Shown here piece after piece: positions 1-59,022 of a stretch of 64,000 nucleotides of DNA. The notes beneath the pieces are model-generated. The model did not search any database, was not told the DNA's origin, and saw only the letters and a list, made by a program, of their open reading frames with translations. The stretch lies in assembly GCA_035236585.1 (NCBI GenBank), contig CP141137.1:51172057-51236056 (forward strand), read 5' to 3'. The stretch is from Warburgia ugandensis. Its lineage: Eukaryota > Streptophyta > Magnoliopsida > Canellales > Canellaceae. Both the position numbers and the translations under genes were made by a program. The first letter of the stretch is position 1. Each line of letters starts with the position of its first letter.

Positions 1-45
1 ACTATCGTGTACTATCGTGTACAAGCATTACTATCGTGTACAAGC
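1..45. repeat. short tandem repeat at window edge
   Basis: The phrase actatcgtgt, extended by acaagcat in the later units, is repeated about three times. It ends exactly where homology to copy 2 of the 13.3 kb duplication starts. The core gcattactatcgtgtac recurs at 12644-12660, inside the spacer between the two copies, so this edge probably derives from spacer sequence. Confidence 0.6.
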
Positions 46-145
46 ATGTCGTCTCCTCCAACTATTTTCCTGTAAAATTAGACCAAAATACTTGGATTTA
101 TCTGCAATTCTTCTATTTAATCAACTAAAGATATAAGGCCATTAC

Positions 146-151
146 TTTATT
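146..151 (-). promoter_or_regulatory. poly(A) signal AATAAA of the cysteine-rich peptide gene, copy 1
   Basis: A canonical AATAAA lies on the minus strand about 100 nt downstream of the stop codon. The same hexamer is kept at the same distance in copy 2 (13481-13486). Confidence 0.55.
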
Positions 152-253
152 GATAATTGACTCATTTTAAAGGAAATATAGAAGGATTTAGATCTTCTAA
201 AACAATTCCCTTCCTTCAAGAGGAAGTCATGTGTCCTGATCAGACCACATGGT

Positions 254-1361
254 TTAGGTTTCACAACCACAAACACACAGTCCATCGCTGCAGTTAGCTG
301 GGCATCCTCCACACTTTGGTTTACAGTAGGCATCAGAGTCGCATCGTTCATATAATCCTGTTGCTTCAACTGGGTCCCTTGCAGCGGCTGACATTACCAC
401 ACCTGCTCAAAATGATAGAAATTAGGGACTTGTGACAGATGTTTTGGAGAAACAGCAAAAATATGTGTATATAGATCATTCAAGTGGCAGGGCGTCTAGA
501 ATTAGAGTTAGACCAGGGAGCGCTAATTGCTCCAAAAACTAGATATTTCCTTTGATCATGTATTACCAGAAGCAAAAGTTACCAAGATTCTATGTTCATA
601 GGCAAACTACAACAATCGAATGATTCGGAAGCATGTCTTCCTGATGGCAGTAATATGGTCGGTCAAACAGGCAGCTATACATCTGACTATTGTCAAGACC
701 AGAAGTAATGCCACGCCAGTATATCAGTGCACAAATTTATGTCCCAATTAAAAGAACATAGGTCATGTGACTTTGAGGTCACGAGTTCAAGACATTGAAA
801 TAGCCTCTTGCAAAATGCAAGGTAAGGTTGCGTACTATTGACCTACGTAATCCGCCCTTTCTCCAGACCCTATATACGCGGGAGCTTTGTGCACCAGGGC
901 TGCCCTTTTACGCCCCAGATTGTAGCATGATTCTAGTCGAACATCTTGCTGGCACCATCTTGGGCGATGTAAAAAATAAAGTCCCAAGGCCAGTCGATGA
1001 TACTTAGTAACCGTTACTTCATGAGGCAAACAAGGATTTCTGAGAAGTTCAGGATGGAAGGCGTGGAAACCTGAAGTTCTAAACCAATCAGAAGGATGAT
1101 TTTGGTCTATATCTAATACATAGCCTACATGATGATGAAGGGTAGGGATTACCCACTATCTGGACTCCACAGTGATCTATGAGGCTTGCATAAAAACCTC
1201 AAGCAAGCATTGCGAATGTTTCCTTCTTGATTACTCAGAGCTGAGAAAAGCATTATAGGAGCACAATTAATGGACTTGTGGAACAGAGAAGAAGCAAACT
1301 AACCAGAAGCCAGTACCAGAAGGACGACCAAGAAAGCCAACTTCATGGAGGTCTTCTCCAT
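254..1361 (-). CDS. secreted eight-cysteine peptide, copy 1 (two exons)
   Basis: The exons on the minus strand are 1361-1304 and 402-254. They are joined across a 901-bp intron with donor gttagt and acceptor ttgagcag, in phase 1. The product is 68 residues. Residues 1-27 are a signal peptide: basic start, then LAFLVVLLVLASG, ending SAAA before RDP. The mature part carries eight cysteines (40, 46, 50, 53, 57, 62, 64, 66) spaced C-x5-C-x3-C-x2-C-x3-C-x4-C-x-C-x-C, and ends two residues later. This is the layout of a secreted, disulfide-rich plant peptide. I do not recognise the family, since the spacing fits neither classical defensins nor lipid-transfer proteins, and I assign no function. A TATA box lies 72 bp upstream of the ATG and AATAAA lies 100 nt past the stop. 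The ATG at 1361 is chosen because it sits just before the hydrophobic core; an in-frame upstream extension would start before the TATA box. An antisense Au SINE lies in the intron. A 75-residue frame overlapping exon 2 is a shadow. Confidence 0.82.
760..911 (+). mobile_element. Au SINE in intron of peptide gene, copy 1
   Basis: The sequence carries the Au SINE landmarks in order: the tRNA-like B-box region gaggtcacgagttc, then agcctcttgcaaaatgcaag, gtaaggttgcgtac, cgggagctttgtgcacc, and the end gggctgccctttt. The 5' tRNA head is truncated. It is antisense to the host gene and conserved in copy 2, so it predates the duplication. Confidence 0.85.
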
Positions 1362-1432
1362 GTGTCTTCTAATAAAATGGTAGTCTTCTCTGGAGTTCTG
1401 TTGTTCTGTCTGCATTGTATGGTTACATGGTG

Positions 1433-1439
1433 TTTTATA
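1433..1439 (-). promoter_or_regulatory. TATA box of the cysteine-rich peptide gene, copy 1
   Basis: TATAAAA on the minus strand lies 72 bp upstream of the ATG at 1361. This implies a start site near 1405 and a 5' leader of about 40 nt. It is identical in copy 2. Confidence 0.65.
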
Positions 1440-2703
1440 GGCAAAATTAGGCTGCCAACAATTATCACATGGATCATTGCCATATCGCCCTTGGATTTTC
1501 CAATGCACGCTTATTCATTTAGTTCCCAAATTGAGCAAAGTAAAATCTATTAGAAAATCTTTTTAATTAGTACTGTTTGGCACGAGCAGATCACAACGTA
1601 GGTTGCCCCTTTGGCAATCACATGCTTAATATGTCCGTTGCCTCTTTTACATTGTGGACCCACCTGAAGCTGATCCAGACCGTTTATCTGATAATTTCTG
1701 TTACTGTGATATCTAGTACCCAAAAATCATGTCAATTAGATAAATCTAGCTTGAAGAATAATTTGCTGTTGGTTGGTGAATGTGGACCTGGTTTTGCCTG
1801 TTGCAGTGCACTGACCGAAGGCATCCATGGGTGCTAGCATTCTCCAACTGGTTTATTTTTGGCCTTCAAGTATCCAGTATGCAAAAAAGTCAGGTGAACA
1901 GTCCTGATCAATCACAGCTACGCCTGTGGTATCAGCGTGGCCGTCTGCTTTTGAGTGGATGAAGGTTTACTGTTCTAGAAACCTTGACATATTCTGGCAG
2001 GTCTGCTGCTGGCAGGTGATGGCATTCCCATTAGAACCCAAGGAACACAGACACGCAAATAGCAGATTACGTAAGTCTGCATGGAATTCAACCACATGTT
2101 TGTAGATGATTTTTAGAGCCCAAGGTGTGTATATGAGCTAAGACCTTATAGTAGAAGAGATAATAGTATGAAGAAATGGACATGAGTTTCAGGAGATAAA
2201 TGAAGGAAAGGGAAACAAAAAAGGCATATAAAATTAGGTTGAAGAAGAAACGGTTCTGTAATACCGACTGCCCATCACATACCTATTGAAACGGCATCAA
2301 CGTCATTTGCTCATTAAAACCTGCAGTTACCGAGATTCCCTCTAAAACTTAATGGTAAGAGGGTGACTCTCGGAAGAAAGAGCCAAAATTTAAGGGCGTC
2401 TTTGAAATCATAGAAAAGGTAAGTGGGCATTTGATATTCTTTGAAAAGCTAGGTATGTCTTTGCAAAATTTTCTAATCTAAAACCTCAATATGCTTAAAA
2501 AATCATAGAGACTTCCGATTATTGTACAACTCCAATTTAAACAATCAGATCTCCTTGATTCTCCTTTTAACTTAATGAATTGCCATAACAAAAAGAAAAA
2601 ATGTGAGAAATTTTTTTCATTGTGGTGCATATACCTAAATGTAGCTCAAAAGATGAACATTTTGGATCACCAAGTAAACCTATACCCTTATGCAATATTT
2701 AGC
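1440..2703. other. 5' flank of peptide gene; no further gene seen
   Basis: This sequence is upstream of the minus-strand peptide gene and would hold its distal promoter. It has only short frames without recognisable domains. It is well conserved in copy 2, including a segment near 1577-1837 whose frame differs between copies, which argues against coding. Confidence 0.5.
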
Positions 2704-3339
2704 TGTGACGACCTCACTTTTTTGAAATTTTTTAAAACCATTTTTAAAATTAGTTGGGATCTCCTGTTATGAAAATTTCTTTTTTGAAAAATAAATAACA
2801 TCATTTTTTTTTTAAGAAAACACTTTTAAAAAAACCCCAAGTGTCATAACTTTCACATAATTTGGATTTAACGATGAGATAGACATTCCATTTCTCCCAA
2901 AAATTGAGCAGAGTTTTCTCTGTTTTTTGAACATTTGCATTTAACGCATGCAATGAGGCAAAACCTAATAATTTCAAAATTATTATCAATACATTTGGAG
3001 GCTATCTCCACACCCATATAATCATACTTTTAAAAAGTTTAAAAGAAGCAACAATGTTTAACAAACAGATATTAAATATTACCATTTACTCAAAATCTCC
3101 TCCAATCACAGTCCATAGTCCATTATACTTATTCCATATAGTATTTAAGTCTAAGTCATAAGGAAAGTTGAAATTTTATCAGTTATACAGTTCAAACATA
3201 ACCCATAGTTCAAATTTTGTTTAGAAATATGCATCAGTAAAGCTAGCTCGTACTACCTTAGTCGTCGTCAAACAATCTCCTCTGTAAGCCTTGTCTACTT
3301 CGTTAAAACTGAATGCTGCTCTTAATTACTTCTTTGGAT

Positions 3340-3370
3340 CTGAGGTATTGTACATACTACAATATCTCAG
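3340..3370. other. family hairpin in outermost element, copy 1
   Basis: Arms ctgaggtattgta and tacaatatctcag form a 13-bp stem with one G.U pair around a 5-nt loop. It is about 640 bp from the element's TGTGACG end. In copy 2 (16679-16709) the right arm has one mismatch. Confidence 0.7.
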
Positions 3371-4491
3371 TAAGCTATTGTAATATTCTCAATTTTTACT
3401 TCTAAAAAAAATAAGTAATAAGATAATTTAATAAAATTTAAAAATTTATAACATAGATTTTTTGACTTGAAACTATCAAATTTAGAAACTACGCATCGAT
3501 AGGATTTGAACGATATAAAGAAAACCAAAAACAGAGCTCAGATGAGGGAGATATGAACATTTTAAGTTTTGAGGGCATTTTGGTAATTAGAAAAGGGACC
3601 CAAATGAGAGGGGTCGTTTTGATAACGACACCCCCTTTTCATTCCGATCCAATCGCCAGCAGTTCTATGAGGAAAGCGGATCTCCAACTACAAATGCACT
3701 CTTTTCCCCTTTCCCTAACGCAAAACAACCCAAGAATCATTGCCTTCTTTGCCTCGCTCTCCGGTAAACACAATCAACATCTACACTCACCAGAAACTCT
3801 AATCTCCCCTCTCTGGCTCAAATCAAGTAGGCCCATCCTTCTCTTTTTCCTTTTTTCTGACTTCTGCCTCATAGATCCGGGCCGGATCTGGTCTCAACGA
3901 CTGATGAAACACGGCTGAAACCAAAACCGTAGATCATGGCTAGCTCTCACATTAAGTACAACTAGTATGACAGATCTGAGCCGTCCAATATAATCTTTGG
4001 ACCCAAAAACCGTAAGAACAATGAAAATAGATCAAAGATCTGATCATCTAGGACTTTGATAGAGTCAAAACAAGTTGGATTGTTCAAGTTCATCGTCCCC
4101 AATGGATGATGTAACTAGTTGTGACACCCCGGGTTTTTCATGAACATTTTTCGCTGTTATTTCAAAAGATGGCGTGCCTCTAAATTTTAAAATACAAAAA
4201 AAGCGGAAGGTTTTTCTTTGAAATTCATTTTTCCAAAAACCCGGATGTCACCCTCATGCTCATACTATACATATATATAGTTTTTTACAAGATAGAACTT
4301 TATTTGTGAAAACAGGATCCATCCAATGGTTCACTTGTATAACCCCTATAACATTATATTAAATGTCCAATGTCATAATTCAAATGACTAACTACACAAT
4401 AAAAAAGCTTTAAATAAAATGTAAACCTGTGCGCAAAAGTATGGTTGCTGGATTCCTTTTGTTGTGTACATCTTCTCTTGTCTTTCTATAT

Positions 4492-4530
4492 CTGAGATAT
4501 TGTAAACATAAAGCATTTACAATATCTCAG
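4492..4530. other. family hairpin, inner element, copy 1
   Basis: There is a perfect 15-bp stem: CTGAGATATTGTAAA pairs with TTTACAATATCTCAG around a 9-nt loop, followed by caagctatgcttgg. It lies about 370 bp from the element's TGTGAC end. Confidence 0.8.
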
Positions 4531-7074
4531 CAAGCTATGCTTGGTAGGGGAGTTTAAGAAGCATGCTAAATCTTAAGATACATTAATTATTCAATAGTAA
4601 TGTGAATATTCATTTCTATAGCAATTAGGTTAAATTGAATTTACAATATGTTTCATATCTCAATGACCCATTTGTAAGCCAAATATGTACTTGCTTTCAT
4701 CATTATTAATAATTTCATTAATAAATCAGATATCTTTACTTATTATTTATCATCAAATAAATACTTCAATTCCATGAACCATACTCTACATACAATTATA
4801 CCCATTTACTAACCCATATGAAAACATATATGAAAATACTCCCTCAATCATATTAATATAACAATAATACACATATATGAAAATTGTTAAAGGACATACA
4901 AGATTATGAATATAATCAACGTCACCTAATTTGCATTCCCAAATTATGCTGGGTTTCATAATCATACCTCTCATCATGCAAGGTTCAAAATTATCCAGCC
5001 ACTACTGGTATATTAATATAATCCTCATGCCCTCACTATACGAGGTCCACAATCCTCCAGCCATTGCTGGGAAAACAATATAAGGCATATCATCATGCCA
5101 TATCATATAAGGCGTCTCATAATTTCATCATATACACATGTCCCGTGGGCAAAATGCACAACGTATATAATGTTGTCCTCTTTGCGTCCCTCACAACTGC
5201 CTGGACCTCACAACTGCCTAACCAGCATCTCTTGGGCACTCCAGTGTCTTTTGACAACCCTCAAGGATAGGCACTATAGTGCATCAAATATAAGGACTAC
5301 TATGCATGCAATCAAAATCCGTACAACGCACCCAGATAACTGCTCAATAATCCACCTATACCATCCTTGATGGAAATCACAATATCCATGTTTGCATGGG
5401 GAGGACCATGGATTTCACAGTGGCAGCCTTCCCATGATTGCTCCACCTGACTTTTTGCAACACATAGTGCATGGTATCCATAACATAATAAATTTCAGAG
5501 AGCGAGTGGCCAAACCCTCATAACTCTCCTAGCATAGCATCCCCAGGTCTATGCCTGTCTAAAACAAAACTCTCAGGCCTCCCTGCCCAAATGTAAAATA
5601 ATCATAATAGTAGACAATTCGCCTGTTCATATATTTCATAACAAGAATAACATCCTCACTTATTTGGTGATAACCTACCGAGGATGTATCTTATAACTTA
5701 GACTCATACATCTTCAATACTGACATGGTACCCATGTACCATAAACATCATTTCACAATTCACATACATGATGTACAAGGCATAAGCATCAATTATAACA
5801 TGTAATTCTTTTAATTAACATTATTTCAATTTAAAGCATGTCGAATAGCAATCATATAATCAAAAATAAGACCATGCTAGAACATGCATCTTATTATTTA
5901 GACATGCTGTCTTATATTTTCACCTACCTTATGTGATGCGTTCACCGAATTCCACTAGCTTTAATTGCACTCTTCTTCACGATCGACCCCATACGCTTCA
6001 ACTCATTGTATGCCTTCCTAACAAGTATTGATGTGAGGACCTCATTTAGGTAAGCTGAAAGCCTAGCAACACTAAGATGTGACTTACTAGATATCATTCA
6101 AAGTTCTTCACCCAGATACACAATGACAATAGACATGCACGAAATGACCAAGGCTGAAATAAGTAAAAGGATAGAATTGATCATTCACACATGAGTTGCC
6201 ATTTTAGCTAACTCGAGGGTATTTGGCATAATACTATTCAAAAGAGCATAAAGAGTATCCACGATGTCAAAAGCCTCTGCGGTAATTATATGCGCAATGT
6301 CTCCAGCCAAAACCCCTCCACTCCCTTCAAAGAAGCCTAACTCTCTCTGCAACACTCTTCCACCAGACCCTTCTTCATGCTGTTCACACATCCATCAACT
6401 CCCAGTCGTTTCTTTGCAACAATCCAGTGGCCACAACAAGGCCGAGTACTGTCAGTAATCCACCTCCCATCCATCTCAAAAAAAACCTAGAGATCGAATT
6501 GTAAAAATAGGGTATTACATCTTCGAAAGAGGAAGATTCGATAGAAACGATTGATCCCTTGCTTATGTGTAAGAGACAAAGAGTGAAAAAAATTAAGTAT
6601 AAACATTGCAGAGAACCTACCTGCAAAATGATCAACATCCTCCATCGCCACCTAAGAAGACATTTTTCATCGAAATTTTTAGGTGATAACTCCATTTTTC
6701 TGGCATGTTTGGCTTCCACTCCTACTCCCTCTTTCTTCTCTATCGTTTCTCATTGTCATCGGGTTTTGGGAACAGACCTGAGTCTGTTCCACGTTTTCAC
6801 TCAAGCAAGGTACCAATAGGTATCCTAAAAGAGGGAAATGGACGAGTAGGGAGAGGATTTACCCGGCAGGAGAGGGAATGATCAGAGGTGGAAGGGCAAT
6901 CCGATCGAAGGGGTTTTTGCATCTCGTTTGGAGTTGCTGGGTAGGGTTTTCATGGCTGGAAAAATAGATCGTGAGATCTATTCTTTCTCTGCTGGTGGGA
7001 GATCCGAGCAAGGGGAAACTTGCTGTGCCGATGGAAGATCGAAGCAGGGCAAAAGCCCTAGGTTTTGCACTGGT

Positions 7075-7175
<101 letters not shown>

Positions 7176-9153
7176 AAACCCGACAATGTGAGGGGGGGGA
7201 TGCCAATATCAATTTGGACCCCTCCCGTTAAGTTGTATTCTTTGTTTTTCTTCTTCTTTTAATTACCATATTGCCCTTGACTTCAAACGCCCATAACTTC
7301 TTCATATGTGCTCTGTTTTCAACATTCTTTGGCTTGTTGGATTTCATTTCCTGAGCACTATCTAATGATTTTATTAGTTTTAAATTTATACTTCTATAAA
7401 AGGATATTAAATTTTGGAGTTGTTACACTAGTACATCGATCAAAATGCACTGTTTCACAAATGTTTCGTCATGTGCACGTGCGCGCAAGGGACGCCACAG
7501 CACGCGGTCATGTTTGGGCGGTATGCCCAGCGTCCTAAAAACTAGGACACACATTGCGCATCCTGGGGGCGATGCGTCCCGGGGATGCCAGATTACGCCA
7601 GTTTAAATCGATGTAAACGGCTCCACCAGTGCAACCCAATGTAAAAAGGGATTAGGCCTAAGATTTTGATACGAAATCATTTTTCTGAGATTCGAGAGGC
7701 TACACAAGTCCTATTTTCGATCCATAAGGTTCGTTGAAATTGCTTCAATGACACGGACCTAATTTTAGTATTATAATCTTGATTTTATCACATTTAGACA
7801 GGTCAATTTCAAGAAATCGCATAAAATGACCTAGATCAGGTCGATCAAGGGGTGATCAGGCCTTAGAACTTGAACAATTAGGTAATCTAAGATAAGAAAT
7901 GAGGGTTCTAAAGATCAGATTAAGCAGACTTAACATAGAAATTGATCTGGACCATTGATATAACCAAGATTTAGGAAATTTGTTGATCTGAGGGTGATCT
8001 AACTATCGGATCAAGGTGTAAACTTTAGATAGAGACTAAAATAAGTAGATGAATATAAATTAGAATTAATTAATAATAATTAAAGTTATAATTGATGATC
8101 AAATCACAAATAAAGTCTTAAAGAACGATCCAATAGTTGGATCGCCATAGATTACACTAGGATAAAATAAATAACACGAAATAGTACAGTGATACTGAAA
8201 GGTACATTAGATCGCACGAGCTAAGAGGATTACACGCTTGATTAGATTATCTCTCATTAAGGTAGGTGAACACATTTAATGTTGCATTTTTATTTTTATT
8301 TTTATAAAATCCCGCATCATGATTGATTGCTATTGGTTGTCATATGTTTATTTATTTTGAATACCTGTAAATTGCAAAGTTTTATGCCATGATTTGATAT
8401 GAGATTTCGATAGCCCATTGAATGGGTTCCCTCATGATCAATTGTTTTATGTTATTGATACGGCGTATCTTATGTATGATTAGTAATTATCTTACTTTAT
8501 TGCATCACTGAGATTGGTGATTTTTTTTTTTTCCATACAATCGGTGTGGAAGCTTGGTGGCTAGTCCTTGAGAGGCTAACCCCGAGATGAGGGGTGTGCT
8601 TTGGGGATTGTGAGCCACGAGTGTTCCTGGTTTTTATGAGATACGTGACTTCTTTGTTTTGTGATTTATAATACGATGTTGTCACCCCATGAATGTCATG
8701 CTAGGAGGGAGTAGAGCTGGCCACCCAAGCTCTGAATTTATGATGTGATAGACACCTACCGACAGATGGCTTTCGTTAGGAGTTTGGTAATATGTATAGT
8801 CCACACTAACAATTTGGGCCTTCTCATAGGACAGACATTAGCTCTCCCATTATGGTGTCAACAGGGAGCGTCGGTGGTTAAGACCTTAGATTGGTTGTCA
8901 CTGCTGCATGACGATCTGTACTCTTGTTCTGTATGCTTGCATGATAAACATTGAGATGTTATTGTATGTCTGGAAGTGACGACACTCAGAGGATTGATAT
9001 AAGTATTCATGATTTGTTGTACCAGTATATGAAATACTCGTGGGACCCACGTACCTTGGGTGCCCTGCTTGTTTATTATATGCTCATTGAGATTTGATCA
9101 TATCATGTTATACACCCATGAGATTCATGTTTTATTGCACAAGCAATAGCTTG

Positions 9154-9185
9154 CTGAGGCATTGCTTTGTTTTGCAATGCCTCAG
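9154..9185. other. family hairpin, middle element, copy 1
   Basis: There is a perfect 12-bp stem: CTGAGGCATTGC pairs with GCAATGCCTCAG around tttgtttt. Relative to the inner element, AT has changed to GC on both arms. It lies about 505 bp from the element's end. Confidence 0.8.
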
Positions 9186-11490
9186 ATATCGAGCACGACA
9201 GTAGGAAAGGTAAGGGAGTGGAGGGACAATGATAGTAGTGCTCACAAATTTGATTTGGCTGATAGATATCTGGACGTGAGTGATTAAATGTACTACATTT
9301 TGAACTTATTTTATGGGCAATATACCTTCATTAGATGAGTTTAATTATGACATATATATATTATGGACCTTTTTTTTAAGTATGGTAGAATGTGATGATG
9401 GATAGACCTTGGGCCACATTATTATACTTTTAAATATTTATTATTTAAAAAATAAAGGTGCCGTTGATTTTGACATTGGATTTGATATAAGTATTGTTTT
9501 AAATTTATTGCTCTTTACTTATATTTATCTCATAATCGTGGTTGCAATGTTTTCGAAAAAGTAAATAACACCTGGGGGTTTTTAGGTGAATGTTTTATAT
9601 AATATAGTAAATAAAACCTTTTGACTCTGGAATCCAGGCTAAATTTATTATTATTATTATTATTTATACAAAAAAATTAGGGTGTTACAGCTATGCTTGT
9701 ATAGGTGTCTAACATTACATTTAACAATTAACAATTACAAATAGGCATTGTAATCATTGTAAACATTTAACATTTAACAAGAATATGATGACAAAGTCTA
9801 GTAATTTAAGTAATCATTGTAATGCATGCAAAATGATAGATTCAAATTATGTAAAGGTGCAAATTATTCATTTGTAAATCAAGCTTAAGATTTTGATAAC
9901 ATCATACAACTGAATTTACATTCTTTACAAAATCATTCTAGAAAGTAATGATGCACTCAAGAAATCATAAATGCATACAATACCTACAGAAGTATAAAGT
10001 TCCATCAATAATAAAATTATTTAATACCTCAAATTTTCAAGAGCATTTTAATAATCACACCTTAGCCTTAAGTGCTCACACCAACATCTAGGCATCCTCA
10101 TGCCATATCAATATAGGGAATCATCACCCTATTGCTCTCATTGTGCCAAGTCACATCCACAAACATGAAAGAAACTCATCGACTACTCTGCATCTTCAAC
10201 TCGGATCTACTCTATCTACATGCTCAACTGTTGATACCATAGTGAGGAGACTACGATTCACACCACATGGGGATGTGAACCAACGCCAAGTGGGCCTTCT
10301 CATGATACCCACATTGGAAAAAGCCAATGATGGCTGTAAAAGGTATTTGAACTTCAAAGAGCTAGTGCCTGACCCTACTATTCCCCTAGCACAGTGTCCA
10401 TAGGGCATCACCGCCCATCTGAAACAAATCATCAAAAAACTTTGTGATAAATTGGTAGTGCCCACCCATTCTGTCTGGCCCTCCTACTGGACAATGATTT
10501 CTTCAAGGCAGGAAGGCAAGCAGGGCGGACGGGAACCATCGAAGAAGTGCCTAGACATGCCGCAGGCACTACTTTGACTACTTTTATGTAACTATGAGCC
10601 CCACAGAACCTTATCGACTCCAATGCAACTTCTCCTTTTTGAGCTGGAGATAAGTTAACCCGAACCACTGACATCTGCCACAGGGTAAACCACCGCCTAT
10701 TAGGTCTTCCCGAGTGATTCTACCATAGAGGCCAACAATAGACAACAACTCCCCCACAAACCTCATTTGAATTATAGAGCTACAATACAATCAAACCCGA
10801 ACAAACAAAACATTGAATAGAATTATATTAGTCTCTACTGGAGGTTATTACTCAGTTTTATACGAAACATTCTGGAGCTACAAAGATAGTTATTGAATTG
10901 TTAGCACCAAATAAAAACATTTCTCCTAGAGTAGTTGTTAATAAGAATAATAGAAACTCTTTTATAGCCATTTATGTACACTCAATGTACTCTACCGATA
11001 GAGGAATACATAGAGTTGAACATGGTAAAATAAGAAATTAAAAGATTTTGTTAAACAAAGGTGTACAATCTCTGTAAAGTTAGCGGCAAAACCTTTGGTT
11101 CGTCAAAGTTCATTCACTGTATTCGGGCTTCTTCTCATTCTTCTTTCGCACATGCAATAGAGATCGGAGGTATTTGGCCCTCAAAAGGGATTGGGGTTTT
11201 AGATTCTCGAGAAATCCCTATTCTTAATACCCTTATTCCCCCCTTCATCCGGACTACCGTAACTTGGGGTCATCATGCTATGCTTGCAGGAAAGGAAAAA
11301 TGAGCAGTTTACACTTTAGTAGCTAAGATGCAGGCATCATTCGTAAAAGAGTTGGATGCTGTTAAAATATTCCGTTGGAGTCTCCCTTAGTCATTTGCTC
11401 GAATATTGTATTAATAATGAGGGAGTCTCGCATCTCATTCGTAGACTCATGATCAAGCTAGCTCATTCATTCATTTGCCAACTTCTAATT

Positions 11491-11955: not shown

Positions 11956-12138
11956 AAAAAAGGGCATGCCCGGTGCACGAAGCTCCCGCCTATGTGGGGT
12001 CCGAGGAAGGGGCAGGCCACTATGGCCTAAAGTAGGCAGCCCTACCTTGCATTTTTGCAAGAGGCTGATTCCACGCCTTGACCCCGTGACCTCAAGGTCA
12101 CATGACGACAACTTTTATTGTTGCGCCAAGGCTCCTCC
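11956..12138 (-). mobile_element. Au SINE, near full length, with target duplication
   Basis: Reading the minus strand, it runs ggagccttggcgcaac, gaggtcacggggtc, cctcttgcaaaaatgcaag, cgggagcttcgtgcacc and gggcatgccctttttt. It is flanked by the 8-bp direct repeat tccgatat (11948-11955 and 12139-12146). It is the only copy here that keeps most of the tRNA-derived head. Confidence 0.9.
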
Positions 12139-12146
12139 TCCGATAT

Positions 12147-12649
12147 CATAAACTTTATTTATGCAATCTCCTACGCGAGCAAGGGCATTAGCTTCATTAT
12201 TAGCTGATCACTTAACATGGGAAAACATCACCTCCATGTTAGCAATCAAATCCCTCATTTCATCTAAACTCAATCCAAAACATTCAATGAATTGCGCTCT
12301 CTACATTAGGACCGATGGAAGAGTTTTAAACTATGCCTCTACAATAGGACTAATGGGGCTACCCTCCCAAATTTAACACTCAATGAATCATACTCTACAT
12401 TAGGAGTAATGGGATTATCCTCCCAAAGCATCAAATCCTGTATGTAAAGCCCATTCTTCAACGCCGTCTGAAGCAAGGTCATTTAGTCAAGAAAGCATGA
12501 ATTTGGCAACACCACTATGATCACGGAGATGACTTCTTATGCCAACATTTCCCGGATAGCCAAGAGTACCACCACCAAAATTTAATTTGAAAGAGCCTAC
12601 TAGGGCATGATTTCATTAAGGAATTACATTTTATTTGTGAGCATTACTA
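12147..12649. other. spacer, no gene seen
   Basis: There is a short internal near-repeat (acaataggactaatggggctaccctcccaa versus acattaggagtaatgggattatcctcccaa, described here by its parts) near 12341-12427. No coding or RNA feature is supported. Confidence 0.4.
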
Positions 12650-12725
12650 TCGTGTACTATCAACCCATTGTGGTCCTTCCCTTCCCCGGACTCTACATAC
12701 GTGAGATCTTCGTGCAGCAGGTTAC
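12650..12725 (+). mobile_element. Au SINE fragment (3' half)
   Basis: The segment gtgtactatcaaccc, then tggtccttcccttcccc, then tacgtgagatcttcgtgc matches the distal half of the Au SINE in order. The end is degraded (gcaggttaccc). Confidence 0.55.
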
Positions 12726-13075: not shown

Positions 13076-13480
13076 TCTTTTACATCATCCCATAAATTTT
13101 ATGAGGTGAATTTTCCAGCCGCTATTCTAGCAAATAGGGCCGCTGACCTCAAGAGAAGCCAAGTGTGGATCTCTATCCTAAAACTATCTATAATGCCATA
13201 AAGCTGGCCCTTTGGGGTACTACAGTACCTAGACGAATGTATACCCTTTGTTAAAGCTATAGCATTTAAGTTTCTGTGCAAAAAAAATCAGAAAAAGTTG
13301 TTTTGTTTGCCTGTGAATGTTGTGAAAGGGGAGGCATAACTTTAGATTTGACATTGGCAAAGGACAACCAGTGCTACAACATGTCGTCTCCTCCAACTAT
13401 TTTCCTGTAAAATTAGACCAAAATACTTGGATTTATCTGCAAATCTTCTATTTAATTAACTAAAGATATAAGACCATTAC

Positions 13481-13486
13481 TTTATT
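13481..13486 (-). promoter_or_regulatory. poly(A) signal AATAAA, peptide gene copy 2
   Basis: This is the same position relative to the stop codon as in copy 1. Confidence 0.55.
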
Positions 13487-13588
13487 GATAATTGTCTCAT
13501 TTTTAAGGAAATATAGAAGGATTTAGATCTTCTAAGACAATTCCCTTCCTTCAAGAGGAAGTCATATGTCCTGACCAGACCACATGGT

Positions 13589-14667
13589 TTAGGTTTCACA
13601 ACCACAAACACACAGTCCATCGCTGCAGTTAGCTGGGCATCCTCCACACTTTGGTTTACAGTAGGCATCAGAGTCGCATCGTTCATATAATCCTGTTGCT
13701 TCAACTGGGTCCCTTGCAGCGGCTGACATTACCACACCTGCTCAAATTGATAGAAATTAGGGACTTGTGACAGATGTATTGGAGAAACAGCAAAAATATG
13801 TGTATATAGATCATTCAAGTGGCAGGGCGTCTAGAATTAGAGTTAGACCAGGGAGTGCTAATTGCTCCAAAAACTAGATATTTCCTTTGATCATGTATTA
13901 CCAGAAGCAAAAGTTACCAAGATTCTATGTTCATAGGCAAACTACAACAATCGAATGATTCGGAAGTATGTCTTCCTGATGGCAGTAATATGGTCGGTCA
14001 AACAGGCAGCTATACATCTGACTATTGTCAAGACCAGAAGTAATGCCATGCCAGTATATCCGTGCACAAATTTATGTCCTAATTAAAAGAACATAGGTCA
14101 TGGGACTTTGAGGTCACGAGTTCGAGGTATCGAAATAGCCTCTTGCAAAATGCAAGGTAAGGCTGCGTAGTATTGACCCACGTAATCCGCTCTTTCTCCA
14201 GACCCTATATACGCGGGAGCTTTGTGCACCAGGGCTGCCCTTTTACGCCCCAGATTGTAGGATGATTCTAGTCGAACATCTTGCTGGCACCATCTTGGGC
14301 GATGTAAAAAATAAAGTCCCAAGGCCAGTCGGCAAACAAGGATTTCTGAGAAGTTGAGGATGGAAGGCGTGGAAACCTGAAGTTCTAAACCAATCAGAAG
14401 GATGATTTTGGTCTATATCTAATACATAGCCTACATGATGATGAAGGGTAGGGATTACCCACTATCTGGACTCCACAGTGATCTATGAGGCTTGCATAAA
14501 AACCTCAAGCAAGCATTGTGAATGTTTCCTTCTTGATTACTCAGAGCTGAGAAAAGCATTATAGGAGCACAATTAATAGACTTGTGGAACAGAGAAGAAG
14601 AAAACTAACCAGAAGCCAGTACCAGAAGGACGACCAAGAAAGCCAACTTAATGGAGGTCTTCTCCAT
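13589..14667 (-). CDS. secreted eight-cysteine peptide, copy 2 (two exons)
   Basis: The exons are 14667-14610 and 13737-13589, with an 872-bp intron and the same gttagt donor and ttgagcag acceptor as copy 1. The 68-residue product differs from copy 1 only at residue 6 (Met to Ile, in the signal peptide). All eight cysteines, the stop, the TATA box (14739-14745) and the poly(A) signal are kept, while flanking non-coding DNA has many more changes. This suggests the frame is still under constraint, though one substitution is too little to prove it. The intron again contains the antisense Au SINE. The product is presumably secreted; its function is unknown. Confidence 0.82.
14094..14246 (+). mobile_element. 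Au SINE in intron of peptide gene, copy 2
   Basis: It is the same insertion as 760-911, carrying gaggtcacgagttcgag, cctcttgcaaaatgcaagg, gtaaggctgcgta and gggctgccctttt. It is shared by descent, not a second insertion. Confidence 0.85.
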
Positions 14668-14738
14668 GTGTCTTCTAATAAAATGGTAGTCTACTCTGGA
14701 GTTCTGTTGCTGTGTCTGCATTGTATGGTTACATGGTG

Positions 14739-14745
14739 TTTTATA
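14739..14745 (-). promoter_or_regulatory. TATA box of the cysteine-rich peptide gene, copy 2
   Basis: TATAAAA lies 72 bp upstream of the ATG, identical to copy 1. Confidence 0.65.
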
Positions 14746-16039
14746 GGCAAAATTAGGCTGCCAACAATTATCACATGGATCATTGCCATATCGCCCTTGG
14801 ATTTTCCAATGCACGCTTATTCATTTAGTTCCCAAATTGAGCAAAGTAAAATCAATTAGAAAATCTTTTTAATTAGTACTGTTTGGCACGAGCAGATCAC
14901 AACGTAGGTTGCCCCTTTGGCAATCACATGCTTAATATGTCCGTTGCCTCTTTTACATTGTGGACCCACCTGAAGCTGATCCAGACCGTTTATCTGATAA
15001 TTTCTGTTACTGTGATATCTAGTACCCAAAAATCGTGTCAATTAGATAAATCTAGCTTGAAGAATAATTTGCTGTTGGTTGGTGAATGTGGACCTATAAG
15101 CAAGGTTTTGACTGTTGCAGTGCACTGACCGAAGGCATCCATGGGTGCTAGCATTCTCCAACTGGTTTATTTTTGGCCTTCAAGTATCCAGTATGCAAAA
15201 AAGTCAGGTGAACAGTCCTGATCAATCACAGCTACGCCTGTGGTATCAGCGTGGCTGTCTGCGCACTAGTAATCTCATGTCTGCTTTTGAGTGGATGAAG
15301 GTTTACTGTTCTAGAAACCTTGACATATTCTGGCAGGTCTGCTGCTGGCAGGTGATGGCATTCCCATTAGAACCCAAGGAACACAGACACGCAAATAGCA
15401 GATTACGTAAGTCTGCATGGAATTCAACCACATGTTTGTAGATGATTTTTAGAGCCCAAGGTGTGTATATGAGCTAAGACCTTATAGTAGAAGAGATAAT
15501 AGTATGAAGAAATGGACATGAGTTTCAGGAGATAAATGAAGGAAAGGGAAACAAAAAAGGCATATAAAATTAGGTTGAAGAAGAAACGGTTCTGTAATAC
15601 CGACTGCCCATCACATACCTATTGAAACGGCATCAACGTCATTTGCTCATTAAAACCTGCAGTTGCCGAGATTCCCTCTAAAACTTAATGGTAAGAGGGT
15701 GACTCTCGGAAGAAAGAGCCAAAATTTAGTGGCGTCTTTGAAATCATAGAAAAGGTAAGTGGGCATTTGATATTCTTTGAAAAGCTAGGTATGTCTTTGC
15801 AAAATTTTCTAATCTAAAACCTCAATATGCTTAAAAAATCATAGAGACTTCCGATTATTGTACAACTCCAATTTAAACAATTAGATCTCCTTGATTCTCC
15901 TTTTAACTTAATGAATTGCCATAACAAAAAGAAAAAATGTGAGAAATTTTTTTCATTGTGGTGCATATACCTAGATGTAGCTCAAAAGATGAACATTTTG
16001 GATCACCAACTAAACCTATACCCTTATGCAATATTTAGC
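14746..16039. other. 5' flank of peptide gene copy 2; no further gene
   Basis: This is the counterpart of 1440-2703. Differences from copy 1 include an insertion (actagtaatctcatgtctgc) near 15265. No supported coding feature. Confidence 0.5.
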
Positions 16040-16678
16040 TGTGACGACCTCACTTTTTTGAAATTTTTTAAAACCATTTTTTAAATTAGTTGGGATCCCC
16101 TGTTATGAAAATTTCTTTTTTGAAAACAAATAACATCATTTTTTTATTTTTTAAGAAAACACTTTTCAAAAAACCCCAAGTGTCATAACTTTCACATAAT
16201 TTGGATTTAACGATGAAATAGACATTCCATTTCTCCCAAAAATTCAGCAGAGTTTTCTCTGTTTTTTGAACATTTGCATTTAACGCATGCAATGAGGCAA
16301 AACCTAATAATTTCACAATTATTATCAATACATTTGGAGACTATCTCCACACCCATATAATCATACTTTTAAAAAGTTTAAAAGAAGCAACAATTTTTAA
16401 CAAACAGATATTAAATATTACCATTTACTAAAAATCTCCTCCAATCACAGTCCATAGTCCATTATACTTATTCCATACAGTATATAAGTCTAAGTCATAA
16501 GGAAAGTTCAAATTTTATCAGTTATACAGTTCAAACATAACCCATAGCTCAAAATTTGTATAGAAATATGCATCAGTAAAGTAAGCTCGTACTACCTTAG
16601 TCGTCGTCAAACAATCTCCTCTGTAAGCCTTGTCTACTTCTTTAAAATTGAATGCTGCTCTTAATTACTTCTTCGGAT

Positions 16679-16709
16679 CTGAGGTATTGTAAATACTACA
16701 ATATCTAAG
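16679..16709. other. family hairpin in outermost element, copy 2
   Basis: Arms ctgaggtattgta and tacaatatctaag form a stem with one mismatch and one G.U pair. It is the counterpart of 3340-3370. Confidence 0.65.
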
Positions 16710-17854
16710 CAAGCTATTGTAATATTCTCAATGTTTACTTCTAAAAAAAATAAGTACTAAGATAATTTAATAAAATTAAAAAATTTTATAAAATAGAATT
16801 TTTGACTTGAAACTATCAAATTTAGAAACTACGCATCGATAGGATTTGAACGATATAAAGAACACCGAAAACAAAGCTCGAATGAGGGAGATATGAACAT
16901 TTTAAGTTGTGAGGGCATTTTGGTAATTAGAAAAGGAACCCAAATGAGAGGGATCATTTTGATAACGACACCCCCTTTTCATTCCGATCCAATCGCTAGC
17001 AATTCTGTGAGGAAAAGCGGATCTCCAACTACAAAAGCACTCTTTTCCCCTTTCGCTAACGCAAAACAACCCAGGAATCATTGCTTTCTTTGCCTCGCTC
17101 TTCGGTAAACACAACCAATGTCTACACTCACCAGAAACTCTAATCTCCCCTCTCCGGCTCAAATCAGGTAGGCCACACCCTCCATCCTTCTCTTTTTCCT
17201 TTTTTCTGACTTTTGCCTCTTAGATCTGGGCCGAATCTGGTCTCAACGACTGATGAAACGCGGCTGAGACCAAAACCGTAGATCATGGCTAGCTCTCACA
17301 TTAAGGACAACTAGTATGACAGATCTGAGTCGTCCAATATAATCTTTGGACCAAAAAACCTTAGGAATAGTGAAAATAGATCAAAGATCTGATCATCTGG
17401 GACTTTGATAGAGTCAAAACAAGTTGGACAGTTCGAGTTCATCGTCCCCAATGGATGATGTAACTAGTTGTGACACCCCGAGTTTTTCATGAACATTTTT
17501 TATTGTTATTTCAAAAGATGGTGTGCCTCTAAATTTTAAAATACAAAAAAAGCGGAAGGTTTTTCTTTGAAATTCATTTTTCCAAAAACCTGGATGTCAC
17601 CTTCATGCTCACACTATACATATATATATATATATATATATAGTTTTCTAGAAGATAGAAATTTATTTATGAAAACAGGACCCATCCAATGGTTCACTTG
17701 TGTAACCCCTATAACATTATATTAAATTCCCAATGTCATAATTCAAATGACTAACTACACAATACAAAAGCTTTAAATAAAATGTATACCTATGCGCAAA
17801 AGTATGGTTGTTGGATTCCTTTTGTTGTGTACATCTTCTCTTGTCTTTATGTAT

Positions 17855-17893
17855 CTGAGATATTGTAAACATAGAACATTTACAATATCTCAG
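17855..17893. other. family hairpin, inner element, copy 2
   Basis: The 15-bp stem is identical to that at 4492-4530. Only the loop differs (catagaaca versus cataaagca). Confidence 0.8.
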
Positions 17894-20441
17894 CAAGCTA
17901 TGCTTGGTAGGGGAGTTTAAGAAGCATGCTAAATCTTAAGATACATTAATTATTCAATAGTAATGTGAATATTCATTTCTACAGCAATTAGGTTAAATTG
18001 AATTTACAATATGTTTCATATCTCAATGACCCATTTGTAAGCCAAATATCTACATGTTTTCATCATTATTAATAATTTCATTGATAAATCAGATATCTTT
18101 ATTTATTATTTATCATCAAATAAATACTTCAATTCCATGAACCATACTCTGCATACAATTATACCCATTTACTAACTCATATGAAAAATATATGAAACTA
18201 CTCCCTCAATCATATTAATATAACAATGATACACATATATGAAAATTGTTAAAGGACATACAAGATTATGAATATAATCTATGTCACCTAATTTGCATTC
18301 CCAAATTATGTTGGGTTTCATAATCATACCCCTCATCATGCGAGCTTCAAAATTATCCAGCCACTACTGGTATATCAATATAATCCTCATGCCCTCACTA
18401 TACGAGGTCCACAATCCTCCAGCCATTGCTAGGAAAACAATATAAGGCATATCATCATGCCATATCATATAAGACGTCTCATAATTTCATCATATACACA
18501 TGTCCCATGGGCAAAATGCACAACGTATATAATGTTGTCCTCTTTGGGTCCCTCACAACTGCTTGGACCTCACAACTGCCTAACCAGCGTCTCTTGGGCA
18601 CTCTAGTGTCTTTTGGCAACCCTCAAGGATAGGCACCATAGTGCATCAAATATAAGGACTACTATGCATGCAATCAGAATCCGTACAACGCGCCCAGATA
18701 ACTGCTCAATAATCCACCTATACCATCTTCGATGGAAATCTCAATATCCATGTCTGCATGGGGAGGACCATGGATGTCACAGTGGCGGCTTTCCCATAAT
18801 TGCCCCACCTGACTTTTTGCAACACATAGTGCATGGTATCCATAACATAATAAATTTCGGAGAGCGGGTGGCCAAACCCTCATAACTCTCCTAGCATAGC
18901 ATCCCCAGGCCTATGCCTGTCTAAAACAAAACTCTCAGGCCTCCATGCCCAAATGTAAAATAATCATAATAATAGACAATTCACCTGTTCATATATTTCA
19001 TAACAAGAATAACATCCTCACTTATTTGGTGATAACCCACCAAGGATGTATCTTATAACTTTGACTCATACATCATCAATACTGACATGGTACCCATGTA
19101 CCATAAACATCATTTCAAAATTCACATACATGATGTACAAGGCATAAGCATCAATTATAAGATGCAATTCTTTTAATTAACATTATTTCATTATTTCAAT
19201 TTAAAGCATGTCGAATATCAATCATATAATCAGAAATAAGACCATGCTAGAACATGCATCTTATTATTTAGACATGCTGTCTTATATTTTCACCTACCTT
19301 GTGTGATGCGTTCATCGAATTCCACTAGCTTTAATTGCACTCTTCTTCACGATCGACCCTCTACGCTTCAACTCATTGTGTGCCTTCCCAACAAGTATTG
19401 ATGTGAGGACCTCATTTAAGTAAGCTAAAAGCCTAGCAACACTAAGATGTGACCTACTAGATATCATTCAAAGTTTTTCACCCAGTTACACAATGACAAT
19501 AGACATGCACGAAATGACCAAGGCTGAAATAAGTAAAAAGATAGAATTGATCATTCACACCTGAGTTGCTATTTTAGCTAACTGGAGGGTATTTGGCATA
19601 ATACTATTCAAAAGAGCATAAAGAGTATCCACGATGTCAAAAGCCTCTACGGTAATTCTATGCGCAATGTCTCTAGCCAAAACCCCTCCACTCCCTTCAA
19701 AGAAGCCTAACTCTCTCTGCAACACTCTTCCACCAGACCCTTCTTCATGCTGTTCATAGATCCATCAACTCCTAGTCTTTTCTTTGCAACAATCTGGTGG
19801 CCACAACAAGGCCGAGTACTGTCAGTAATCCACTCCCATCCATCTAGAAAAAAACCTACAGATCCAACTGTAAAAACAGGGTATTACATCTTCGAAAGAG
19901 GAAGATTAGATAGAAATGATTGATCCCTTGCTTATGTGTAAGAGACAGAGTGAAAAGAATTAAGTAAAAACATTGCAGAGAACCTACCTGCAAAATGATC
20001 AACATCCTCCATCGCCACCTGAGAAGACATTTTTCATCGAAATTTTCAGGTGATTACGCCATTTTTCTGGCATGTTTGGCTTCCACTCCTACTCCCTCTT
20101 TCTTCTCTATCGTTTCTCATTGTCATTGGGTTTTGGGAACAGACCTAAGTCTGTTCCATGTTTTCATTCAAGCAGGGTGCCAATAGGTATCCTAAAAGAG
20201 GGAAATGGACGAGTAGGGAGAGGATTTACCCGGCAGGAGAGGGGATGATTAGAGGTGGAAGGGTAATCATATCGAAGGGGTTTTTGCATCTCGTTTGGAG
20301 TTGCTGGGTAGGGTTTTCAAGGCTAGAAGAACAGATCGTGAGATCTATTCTTTCTCTACCGGTGGGAGATCCGAGCAAGGGGAAACTTGCCGTGCCGATG
20401 GCAGATCAAGGCAGGGCAAAAGCCCTAGGTTTTGCACTGGT

Positions 20442-20557
<116 letters not shown>

Positions 20558-22458
20558 GTTTGCAACGTGAGGGGGGGTGCCAATATCAATTTGGCCCCCT
20601 CCCGTTAAGTTGTATTCTTTGTTTTTCTTCTTCTTTTAATTACCATATTGCCCTTGACTTCGAACGCCATAACTTCTTCATACGTGCTCTGTTTTCAGCA
20701 TTCTTTGGCTTGTTGGATTCCATTTTCTGAGCACTATCTAATGGTTTTATTAGTTTTAAATTTATACTTCTATAAAAGGATATAAAGTTTTGGAGTTGTT
20801 ACACTAGTACATCGATCAAAATGCACTGGTGTAGAAGGCTTGTTCGGGCGATATGCCCAGCGTCCTAAAAACTAGGACACATTGCGCGTCCTGGAGGCGT
20901 TGCGTCCCGGGGATGCCAGATTACTCCAGTTCAAATCGATGTAAACGGCTCCACCAGTGCAACCCAATGTAAAAATTGATTAGGCCTAAGATTTTGAGCT
21001 GAAATGATTCTTCTGAGATTCGAGAGGCTACAGAAGTCCTATTTTAAATCCATAAGGTTCGTTGAAATTGCTTCAATGACACGGACCTAATTTTAGTATT
21101 ATAATCTTGATTTTATCACATTTAGACAAGTCTATTTCATGAAATTGGACAAAATCACTTAGATCAGGCCAATCAAGGGGTGATCAGGCCTTAGAACTTG
21201 AACAATTAGGTAATCTAAGATAAGAAATGAGGGTTCTAAAGATTAGATTAAGCAGACTTAACATAGAAATTGATCTAACCAAGATCTAGAAAATTTGTTA
21301 ATCTGAGGGTGATCTAACTATCGGATCAAGGTGTAAACTTTAGATAGAGACTAAAATAAGTAGATGAATATAAATTAGAATTAATTAATAATAATTAAAG
21401 TTATAATTGATGATCAAATCACAAATAAAGTCTTAAAGAATGATCCAATGGTTGGATCGCCATAGATTCCACTAGGATGAAATAAATAACACGAAATAGT
21501 ACCGTGATACTGAAAGGTACATCAGACCGTACGAGCTAAGAGGATTACACGCTTGATTAGATTATCTCTCATTAAGGTAGGTGAACACATTTAATGTTGC
21601 ATTTTTATTTTTATAAAATCTTTCATCATGATTGATTGCTATTGGTTGTCATATGTTTATTTATTTTGAATACCTGTAAATTGCAAAGTTTTATGCCATG
21701 ATTTGATATGAGATTTCAACAGCGCATTGAATGGGTTTTCTCATGATCAATTGTTTTATGTTATTGATACGGCGTATCTTATGTATGATTCGTAATTATC
21801 TTACTTTATTGCATCACTGAGATTGGTGATTTTTTTTCCATACAATCGGTGTGGAAGCTTGGTGGCTAGTCCTTGCGAGGCTAACCCCGAGATGAGAGGT
21901 GTGCTTTGGGGATTGTGAGCTGCGAGTGCTCCTGGTTTTTATGAGATACGTGACTTCCGTGTTTTGTGATTTATAACATGGTGCTCTCACCCCATGATTG
22001 TCATGCTAGGAGGGAGTAGGGCTGGCCACCCACCCTCTGAATTTATGATGTGATAGACACCTACCGACAGATGGCTTTCGTTAGGAGTTTGGTAATATGG
22101 ATAGTCCACACTAACAGTTTGGGCCTTCTCGTAGGACAGACATTAACTCTCCCGTTATAGTGTCGACAGGGAGCGTTGGTAGTTAAGACCTTGGATTGGT
22201 TGTCACTGCAGCATGACGATCTGTACTCTTATTTTGTATGCTTACATGATAAGCATTGAGATGTTATTGTATGTCTGGAAGTGACGACACTCAGAGGATT
22301 GATATAAGTATTCATGATTTGTTGTACCAGTATATGAAATACTCGTGGGACCCACGTACCTTGGGTGCCCTGCTTGTTTATTACATGCTCATTGAGATTT
22401 GATCATATCATGTTATACACCCATTAGATTCATGTTTTATCTCACAAGCAATAGCTTG

Positions 22459-22490
22459 CTGAGGCATTGCTTTGTTTTGAATTGCCTCAG
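22459..22490. other. family hairpin, middle element, copy 2
   Basis: Arms CTGAGGCATTGC and GAATTGCCTCAG form a stem with one mismatch introduced in the right arm relative to 9154-9185. Confidence 0.65.
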
Positions 22491-25450
22491 ATACTGAACG
22501 CAACAGTAGGAAAGGTAAGTGAGTGGAGAGACAATGATAGCAGTGCTCACAAATTTGATTTGGCTGATAGATATTTGGACGTGAGTGATTAAATGTACTA
22601 CATTTTGAACTTATTTTATGGGCAATATACCTTCATTAGATGAGTTTAATTATGACACACACACACACACACATATATATATTATGGACCTTTTTTTAAG
22701 TATGGTGGAATGTGATGATAGATAGACCTTAGGCCACATTATTATACTTTTAAATATTTTATTATTTAAAAAATAAAGGTGCTATTGATTTTGACATTGG
22801 ATTTGATATAAGTATTGTTTTAAATTTATTGCTCTTTACTTATATTTATCTCATAATCATGGTTGCGATGTTTTCGAAAAAGTAAATAACACCCGGGGGT
22901 TTTTAGGTGAATGTTTTATATAATATAGTAAATAAAACCTTTTGACTCTGGAATCCAGGCTAAATTTATTATTATTATTATTATTTATACAAAAAAATTA
23001 GGGTGTTGCAGCTATGCTTGTATAGGTGTCTAACATTACATTTAACATTTAACAATTACAAATAGGCATAATACTTCATACAAGAATATGATGACAAAGT
23101 CCAGTAATTTAAGTAATCATTGTAATGCATGCAAAATGATAGATTCAAATTATGTAAAGGTGCAAATTATTCATTTATAAATCAAGCTTAAGATTTTGAT
23201 AACATCATACAACTGAATTTACATTCTTTACAAAATCATTCTAGAAAGTAATGATGCACTCAAGAAATCATAAATGCATACAATACCTACAGAAGTATAA
23301 AGTTCCATCAATAATAAAATTATTTAATACCTCAAATTTTCAAGAGCATTTTAATAATCACACCTTAGCCTTAAGTGCTCACACCAACATCTAGGCATCC
23401 TCATGCCATATCAATATAGGGAATCATCACCCTATTGCTCTCATTGTGCCAAGTCACATCCACAAACATGAAAGAAACTGAGATCGAAGGTATTTGACCC
23501 CCAAAAGGGATTGGGGTTTTAGATTCTCGAGAAATCCCTTTTCTTAATACCCTTATTCCCTACTTCATCCAGGTTGTTGTAACTTGGGTTCATCGTGCTA
23601 TGCTTGCAAGGAAGGAAAAATGAGCAGTTTACTCTTTAGTAGCTAAGATGCTGGCCTGATTCGTAAACTAGTTGGGTGTTGTCAAAATATTTGGATGGAG
23701 TCTCCCTTAGTTATTCGCTCAAATGTTGTATTAATAATGAGGGAGTCTTGCACCTCATTTGTAGACTCATGAGCAAGCTATCTTATTCATTCATTTGCCA
23801 ACTTCTAAAGTCTTCACTTACTAATGGAGTGTGAGAGGGGATACTATACTAAGAAGGGCATGAGAGGAGCCATAAAGGCCCTTCTCCCTTATGATGTATA
23901 GGGGTAGGTTGGTACCTCTCTACTCTATTCTACTCATCAGTTGCATATTAATCATATTTGAAATCAGACCATGGAATACTTAAATCCATACTTATGAAAA
24001 AGTAATACTTGTATTTACTAAGTTCATATTTAGAACATACACATTGGATTAAACCAAAAGTATAAGCAACATAGAGTTAAATACTTTGATAAGGTTCTGA
24101 AGATCACAACTATAATTATAATAATTCTGAATGTGACAATTCTCATAAATAAAATTAGGATTTCATTCATTCGAACATGATTAGTCCAAATTTAGTTCAA
24201 GTAGAAAACATGAAAATGTCAAAACACTTACCTAAAACTACAATCCCAATTACTCCCAAAATCAATAGAATCAGCTAATCTCAACCTCTATCATACAAAT
24301 ATGGGAAACCAATGCATTCAACTCCATCAATTGACTCTCATCAATTCATTAGATTATAAATTTAACATGTGAATGGCCTTAGGTTCATTACCTGATTTAT
24401 AGATCATTCTAAATTATACACTATAGTTTCTAAGTACTTAGAATCCATGTTCTGGTCCTTGATTAGTGTAAAAAAACTTCGATCTCATGATACGATGATC
24501 AGATCCTACATTAGATGTTTGGATCTAGTAGATCAATATTCTGATATGAAATCTTTCTTAATTTCTACACAATTTAAAGGTTAATAAATGTATTGACAAT
24601 GTCTAGTCATCGATCCGATATGCCATGCCTAAGTTCTAATAGTGATTGATCAAATGGTCGAGATTGTCCTATCATTTTTAGGCTTGGACAAACCATCCCT
24701 GTCAGATTTGGATTATTCTAAGTATGTGTTCATGCATTTCTAAATGTGGAATAAGAAATTAATGTAGGATCATTCAAATTCTTTAATTTTCTCCTGTCCT
24801 TGATTGGAACCGTAAGCCTTCCAATTGATATGCAATGATCGCATTTCAATCAAATAATTTTTAGAGGGATTTGGCTATTGATGGTCAAAGAATTTAGCTG
24901 TGGCATTTGATCATCGATCAGGATATCACAAGTCACTATTCCATCAGTGCCTGATCGAATGACTGAGATTGTCCCATTGATTTTTAACTTAGATTTTCAA
25001 TTTTAGCTATAGCTAAGATATTTCAAGCATATTGTATACATGTCCAAGCATGGAATAAGAAATCAACAATCGGATGATCAATAAAACTTAGATCTAACAT
25101 GAACCATACGATCTAGCCAAAAGATCTAAATCATGAGTTGGATTTCATGGATCTTACCTCTTGAGTGTATTTTCATATTTTTCCACTCTTGGATGAGTCA
25201 GATTAGTCACTATTTTGTTATGACATCCTCTGATCACGTCTTGCTTTGTTCCCCTCTTTGATCTACAGTCAAGATCATCATGATCCCCAAATAACCTTGG
25301 GATCGTATCTTTGCATTGAGTGAAATGATTGGCTTGGATCGTCGGTCTGAGCTGTCGTTTTCTCCAGCGACGTCTATAAAATCTGACACATCCGCACACT
25401 TCGTTCTTCTTCCTTGCAAGCGTGTTGCATTTTCTAGTAGCTGTTAGCTT

Positions 25451-36621: not shown

Positions 36622-36768
36622 TATGACCTTAGATCACGAGTTCAAGGAGTGAAAATAGCCTCATTGCAATGCAAGGTAAGGCTGCGTACTATTGAGACCC
36701 TTTGTGATCTGCTCCTTCCCTGGACCCCAAATATGTGGGAGCTTTGTGCACTAGACTGCCCTCTTTTC
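36622..36768 (+). mobile_element. Au SINE, downstream of gene
   Basis: It carries atcacgagttcaagg, aatagcctcattgcaatg, caaggtaaggctgcgtac, tgtgggagctttgtgcac and actgccctcttttc in order, followed by a T-rich run to about 36811. Confidence 0.82.
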
Positions 36769-44563: not shown

Positions 44564-46783
<2,220 letters not shown>

Positions 46784-46789
46784 AGTTTT

Positions 46790-50028: not shown

Positions 50029-50039
50029 TTCTATTCTTC

Positions 50040-54053: not shown

Positions 54054-54198
<145 letters not shown>

Positions 54199-58986: not shown

Positions 58987-59022
<36 letters not shown>

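Follow-up and report, generated by a model that had tools for sequence, protein, structure and literature searches.

Is the pair of short open frames at the left edge of this window (64,000 nucleotides (nt) of Warburgia ugandensis, C12:51172057-51236056 in a genome of 1.12 Gb and 14 contigs) a real spliced gene, and if so, to which class of plant peptides does its product belong? Reading of the window and in-silico splicing define a small two-exon gene for a predicted secreted peptide on the minus strand, spanning 1361-254 (copy A, Table 1). The sequence-only reading, which had proposed a signal-peptide-like exon, a donor, a 901-nt intron, an acceptor and an eight-cysteine frame closed by a stop, was borne out to the base: the donor of exon 1 is GTTAGTTT, the intron acceptor is CATTTTGAGCAG / TTTTGAGCAG, and the spliced precursor, MEKTSMKLAFLVVLLVLASGVVMSAAARDPVEATGLYERCDSDAYCKPKCGGCPANCSDGLCVCGCET, has 68 amino acids with eight cysteines (Cys). 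The spacing given there, C-x5-C-x3-C-x2-C-x3-C-x4-C-x-C-x-C, is that of the spliced translation (gaps 5,3,2,3,4,1,1), and the TATA box and AATAAA signal are in place. The N-terminus of the precursor is hydrophobic, MEKTSMKLAFLVVLLVLASGVVMSAAA, with an A-x-A end judged plausible by eye; secretion of the peptide is predicted solely from this N-terminus.

The six frames of the window were scanned for eight Cys within <30 residues, with 60 first-order Markov simulations of 64 kb as the null. Three matches were obtained (exon 2 of copy A, the corresponding exon of the tandem copy and a frame of simple repeat near 38407), and none in the 60 simulations. Chance open frames beside splice-like sites, with no gene, would be in keeping with the shortness of the exons and with how often GT-AG sites occur over 64 kb. 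Against this stand the empty simulations and, as stronger evidence than the window scan, paralogues of matching gene structure on three contigs.

Genome searches using protein queries from the window, C13, C14a and C14b gave seven intact gene models, three on C12 (A, B and T3), one on C13 and three on C14 (C14a, C14b and C14c). Each consists of two coding exons separated by a phase-1 intron of 519-1158 nt and encodes eight Cys, spaced 5,3,2,3,4,1,1 in the C12 copies and 5,3,2,4,4,1,1 in the C13 and C14 copies. TATAAA lies 63-78 nt 5' of the ATG in six models (63-69 nt in C13, C14b and C14c) and AATAAA lies at most 250 nt from the stop in six; C14a has neither a TATAAA upstream of its ATG nor an AATAAA within 250 nt of its stop. 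The proteins of A, B and T3 are only 1 or 2 residues apart from each other, and comparisons were made among four divergent sequences, A, C13, C14a and C14b.

Exon and intron identities were compared with those of shuffled sequence, using 60 shuffles for exons and 20 for the intron of A versus C13. Between A and C13, exon 1 (86% identity, shuffle mean 47%) and exon 2 (59%, shuffle mean 42%) exceeded all 60 shuffles, the signal exon being better conserved than the mature part, whereas the intron (45%, shuffle mean 42%) fell within the range of its 20 shuffles. Exon 2 of A also exceeded all 60 shuffles against C14a and C14b, the latter barely (56.6% versus a maximum of 56.4%), as did exon 1 against C14b; exon 1 against C14a, at 72%, was exceeded by at least one of 60 shuffles (78%), and the introns of A against C14a and C14b were within shuffle range. 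Given that seven intact models agree in intron phase and in encoding eight Cys, and that exons align above shuffles while introns do not, a chance origin is so improbable as to be negligible; the locus is a gene family, and the earlier claim of a real spliced gene is upheld.

A real family may still consist of non-functional relics, that is, of a decaying set of defensin-like (DEFL) genes whose tandem copies were kept only through recent duplication. The C12 tandem introns indeed differ by only ~2%, at least four relatives have lost Cys or frame and one exon-1-like piece lacks an ATG (Table 1), and the ratio of non-synonymous to synonymous rates (dN/dS) over the coding sequence is 1.20 for C13 versus C14a. 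The other five of six pairs have ratios below 1 (A versus C13, C14a and C14b: 0.36, 0.39 and 0.44; C14b versus C13 and C14a: 0.61 and 0.59), values to be read with the caveat that the sequences are short and that, for A, dS over the mature part comes close to saturation. Moreover, the C12, C13, C14a and C14b lines are of an age at which their introns have ceased to align, yet open frames, splice sites and 8/8 Cys have been kept. Among the four divergent sequences, 10 of 39 ungapped mature columns are invariant, comprising all eight Cys columns and 2 of 31 others (D and G); the hypergeometric probability of this Cys invariance is ~7e-7, although picking intact sequences from a similarity search favours conserved columns. 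Among the C12 copies, all three pairs had a lower rate of change in coding sequence than in the intron, which is suggestive, none of the differences being significant (one-sided p 0.056, 0.279 and 0.094). Relics are considered very improbable.

For the class of the product, published DEFL motifs were applied. As given in PMC6329339, group 1 is CX{4,25}CX{2,12}CX{3,4}CX{3,17}CX{4,32}CXCX{1,6}C, and the six-Cys group 3 (after Silverstein et al. 2007) is CX{2,14}CX{3,5}CX{3,16}CX{4,28}CXC, with gaps otherwise free of Cys. None of the four divergent sequences fits group 1, the classical eight-Cys plant defensin motif (their third gap is 2, not 3-4), and none fits group 3 strictly; all four fit group 3 if the extra two Cys are permitted within or after the motif. 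The family shares with six-Cys group 3 the core C-x5-C-x3-C-x6-C-x4-C-x-C, the signal-like N-terminus and the two-exon layout, and departs from it by Cys53 and Cys66, hence the strict misfit. None of three published six- and eight-Cys DEFL motifs is fitted strictly.

In Pfam, no family cut-off was reached by the tested family precursors. Copies A and B gave a near full-length sub-threshold match to PF25052 AtDEF-like (18.5 bits, E 0.0026; cut-off 25 bits), which was absent in seven of seven shuffled controls and was not among the matches for C13, C14a and C14b. Nodulin_late PF07127, the family of legume NCR peptides (cut-off 30.4 bits), scored 17.7 for C13 and 14.5 for C14a, with no match listed for A, B and C14b. 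A PF25052 profile search of the genome returned nine places, eight of them over the cut-off (C5:4451414-4535843, C9:70403391-70517056, C13:26717792). The five of nine that were read (three on C5, one on C9, one on C13) all carry a CCC motif and differ from the window family; one of them, run against the published motifs, fits group 2. These CCC-motif loci make up another DEFL set of this plant, apart from the window family.

The gene layout and the predicted fold point in the same direction. PMC3924332 describes the DEFL-type gene as a signal exon, an intron of up to 1500 bp and a mature exon, and all seven intact models have the signal in exon 1 and the mature part in exon 2. Two further DEFL traits, Cys kept within a variable mature peptide and clustered copies, were also found, the members forming a tandem array on C12 and a cluster on C14. 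Against solved structures, the family profile matched best to short Cys peptides of toxin and nodule type (K+ toxin-like peptide 1pvz, E 0.0058; NCR13 7th8, a legume nodule peptide, E 0.014). AlphaFold2, given the exon-2 peptide alone (42 residues), predicted a helix and two strands with a mean predicted local distance difference test score of 76, a helix-plus-hairpin fold of modest confidence, whose structural neighbours among the matches listed are mostly scorpion toxins with several plant defensins.

Exon 2 would yield a mature peptide of ~41 residues, in which Cys40, 46, 50, 57, 62 and 64 would form the C-x5-C-x3-C ... C-x4-C-x-C core of a short cysteine-stabilised alpha-beta (CS-alpha-beta) fold, with a C-x3-C helix clamped to a C-x-C beta hairpin; Cys53 and Cys66 would be additions, most likely paired as a fourth disulfide. 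Scorpion short K+ channel toxins, including the four-disulfide Pi4 (PDB 1n8m) and alpha-KTx-6.21 (PDB 6mzt), are among the closest systems. Legume nodule NCR peptides, among them the NCR13 matched by the family profile, are close to motif group 3. The Arabidopsis PdfL genes (CRP0240), as described in PMC8460643, share a small intron in the coding sequence, a signal peptide, a CS-alpha-beta motif and some acidic members (PdfL1.4, pI 4.62), but have six Cys in ~55 residues where the window family has eight in ~41.

Three of these results weigh against a DEFL assignment: the strict motifs missed by all four divergent sequences, the Pfam cut-offs missed throughout, and the differing CCC motif of the PF25052 members read elsewhere in the genome. 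They would suit a lineage-specific eight-Cys secreted peptide class with its own disulfide fold, which had converged on the short C-x5-C-x3-C spacing. The two-exon signal/mature layout, the profile matches to short CS-alpha-beta peptides and the predicted helix-hairpin argue the other way, and such a non-DEFL class is considered improbable. Because the strict motifs and Pfam cut-offs are missed, the family is filed as DEFL-type, probably a subgroup, which may be lineage-specific. The suggestion of an undescribed class is supported in part: not as to class, given the six-Cys DEFL core in all four sequences and the short Cys-peptide profile matches, while the exact spacing strictly fits none of the three published six- and eight-Cys motifs. 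The gene is of an ordinary plant kind with slightly unusual Cys spacing, and the whole reading as a plant DEFL gene, taking together exon layout, CS-alpha-beta peptide and an extracellular ligand or effector, is regarded as highly probable.

Outside the cell, the peptide would be a stable small ligand or a defence effector. Acidity is common to the mature peptides of all four divergent sequences (net charges from -1 to -3, isoelectric points (pI) from 4.3 to 5.4). Classical antimicrobial defensins are mostly basic, and a simple membrane-killing role is weakened by this acidity. Because all four peptides are acidic, binding to one particular protein, be it a receptor, a channel or a protein of a microbe, is favoured over charge-based membrane disruption, although Arabidopsis also has an acidic six-Cys PdfL peptide on record. 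According to PMC3601123, the functions ascribed to DEFLs range over defence, control of nodules, self-incompatibility and guidance of the pollen tube, and the majority of DEFL genes in Arabidopsis show inflorescence expression. For the family described here, a defence or microbe-directed role would take about half of our expectation, a reproductive or developmental signal about a third, and other roles the small remainder. A more detailed proposal is tentative and rather doubtful: a lineage-restricted DEFL subgroup may have added a further disulfide, its fourth (Cys53-Cys66), to a short six-Cys NCR/KTx-type core, turned acidic, and come to act as a specific extracellular ligand (e.g. of a receptor kinase or ion channel, in reproduction or immunity) and not as a membrane-lytic antimicrobial. 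Such a gain on a short core would have a parallel in some four-disulfide scorpion K+ toxins.

The copy A locus is duplicated inside the window (39-10176 versus 13375-23479, 94% identical), within a tandem segmental duplication 39-11488 / 13375-23808 that comprises 94% identity over 10 kb and an extra 329-bp piece at 88%; the sequence-only reading makes no mention of this duplication. The third copy, T3, points to an array of three units, with about 15.2 and 13.3 kb from gene to gene. The family would have grown by tandem and inter-chromosomal duplication, with copies lost by decay. A short TACACGATAGT-type repeat occurs at 1-41 (left window edge) and again at 12640-12661, ~0.7 kb left of the second duplicate block, perhaps near the duplication boundary.

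Table 1. Features of the window copies (window positions) and of their relatives (contig positions)
Feature	Position	Strand	Remarks
Copy A TATA box TATAAA	1439-1434	-	78 nt 5' of ATG
Copy A exon 1, coding part, 58 nt	1361-1304	-	ATG at 1361 and signal-peptide-like region; phase 1 end at donor GTTAGT; 50/58 bases as in C13 paralogue
Copy A intron, 901 nt, GT-AG, phase 1	1303-403	-	carries dispersed repeat ~762-909
Copy A exon 2, coding part, 149 nt incl. stop	402-254	-	end of pre-region and eight-cysteine domain; stop 256-254
Copy A AATAAA polyadenylation-type signal	151-146	-	102 nt past stop
Copy B exon 1	14610-14667	-	one base of 58 changed; Met6 to Ile
Copy B intron, 872 nt	13738-14609	-	21 changes in 872 aligned bases versus copy A
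Copy B exon 2	13589-13737	-	149/149 bases as in copy A
T3	C12, exon 2 from 51157119		tandem family copy outside window
C13 paralogue	C13:46326813-46327636		intact model
C14a	C14:50588978-50590342		intact model
C14b	C14, exon 1 at 50863677		intact model; protein identical to C14c
C14c	C14, exon 1 at 50889337		intact model; protein identical to C14b
Decayed relative	C4:39331084		stop and shifted frame
Decayed relative	C14:50988126		two stops, Cys lost
Decayed relative	C11:12947488		Cys lost
Decayed relative	C14:50922494		Cys lost
Exon-1-like piece without ATG	C12:51150180		

The ~150-bp dispersed repeat in the copy A intron (762-909) has copies at 11958-12106, 36624-36765 and 30392-30493 (75-78% alike) and also in two further loci (L029 and L032), and has no match in Rfam. 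Elsewhere in the window, two near-identical pairs (97-98%; 44564-45888 / 53092-54430 and 45878-46786 / 58912-59819) flank a region at ~49000-50500 with an aspartyl-protease-like frame (PF13650, E 3.1e-6), and these are perhaps recent elements of long-terminal-repeat type. A reverse-transcriptase-like fragment at 31261-31761 on the minus strand (RVT_1, E 0.0012, below cut-off) lies within a segment that resembles 36899-37880 at 73%.

The two-exon peptide gene is invisible to single-frame open reading frame calling, yet was findable by reading alone; that small Cys-rich genes are frequently missed, as the sequence-only reading had stated, agrees with the annotation gaps documented in PMC3924332. 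Named DEFL subgroups already number >100 according to PMC3601123, and as it stands the window family is one further DEFL-type subgroup. What it adds to the DEFL catalogue is a compact family, seven intact copies or more, whose Cys code is defined. Should the additional disulfide and the acidity turn out to have a function, the family would supply a small and stable scaffold directed at a specific target.
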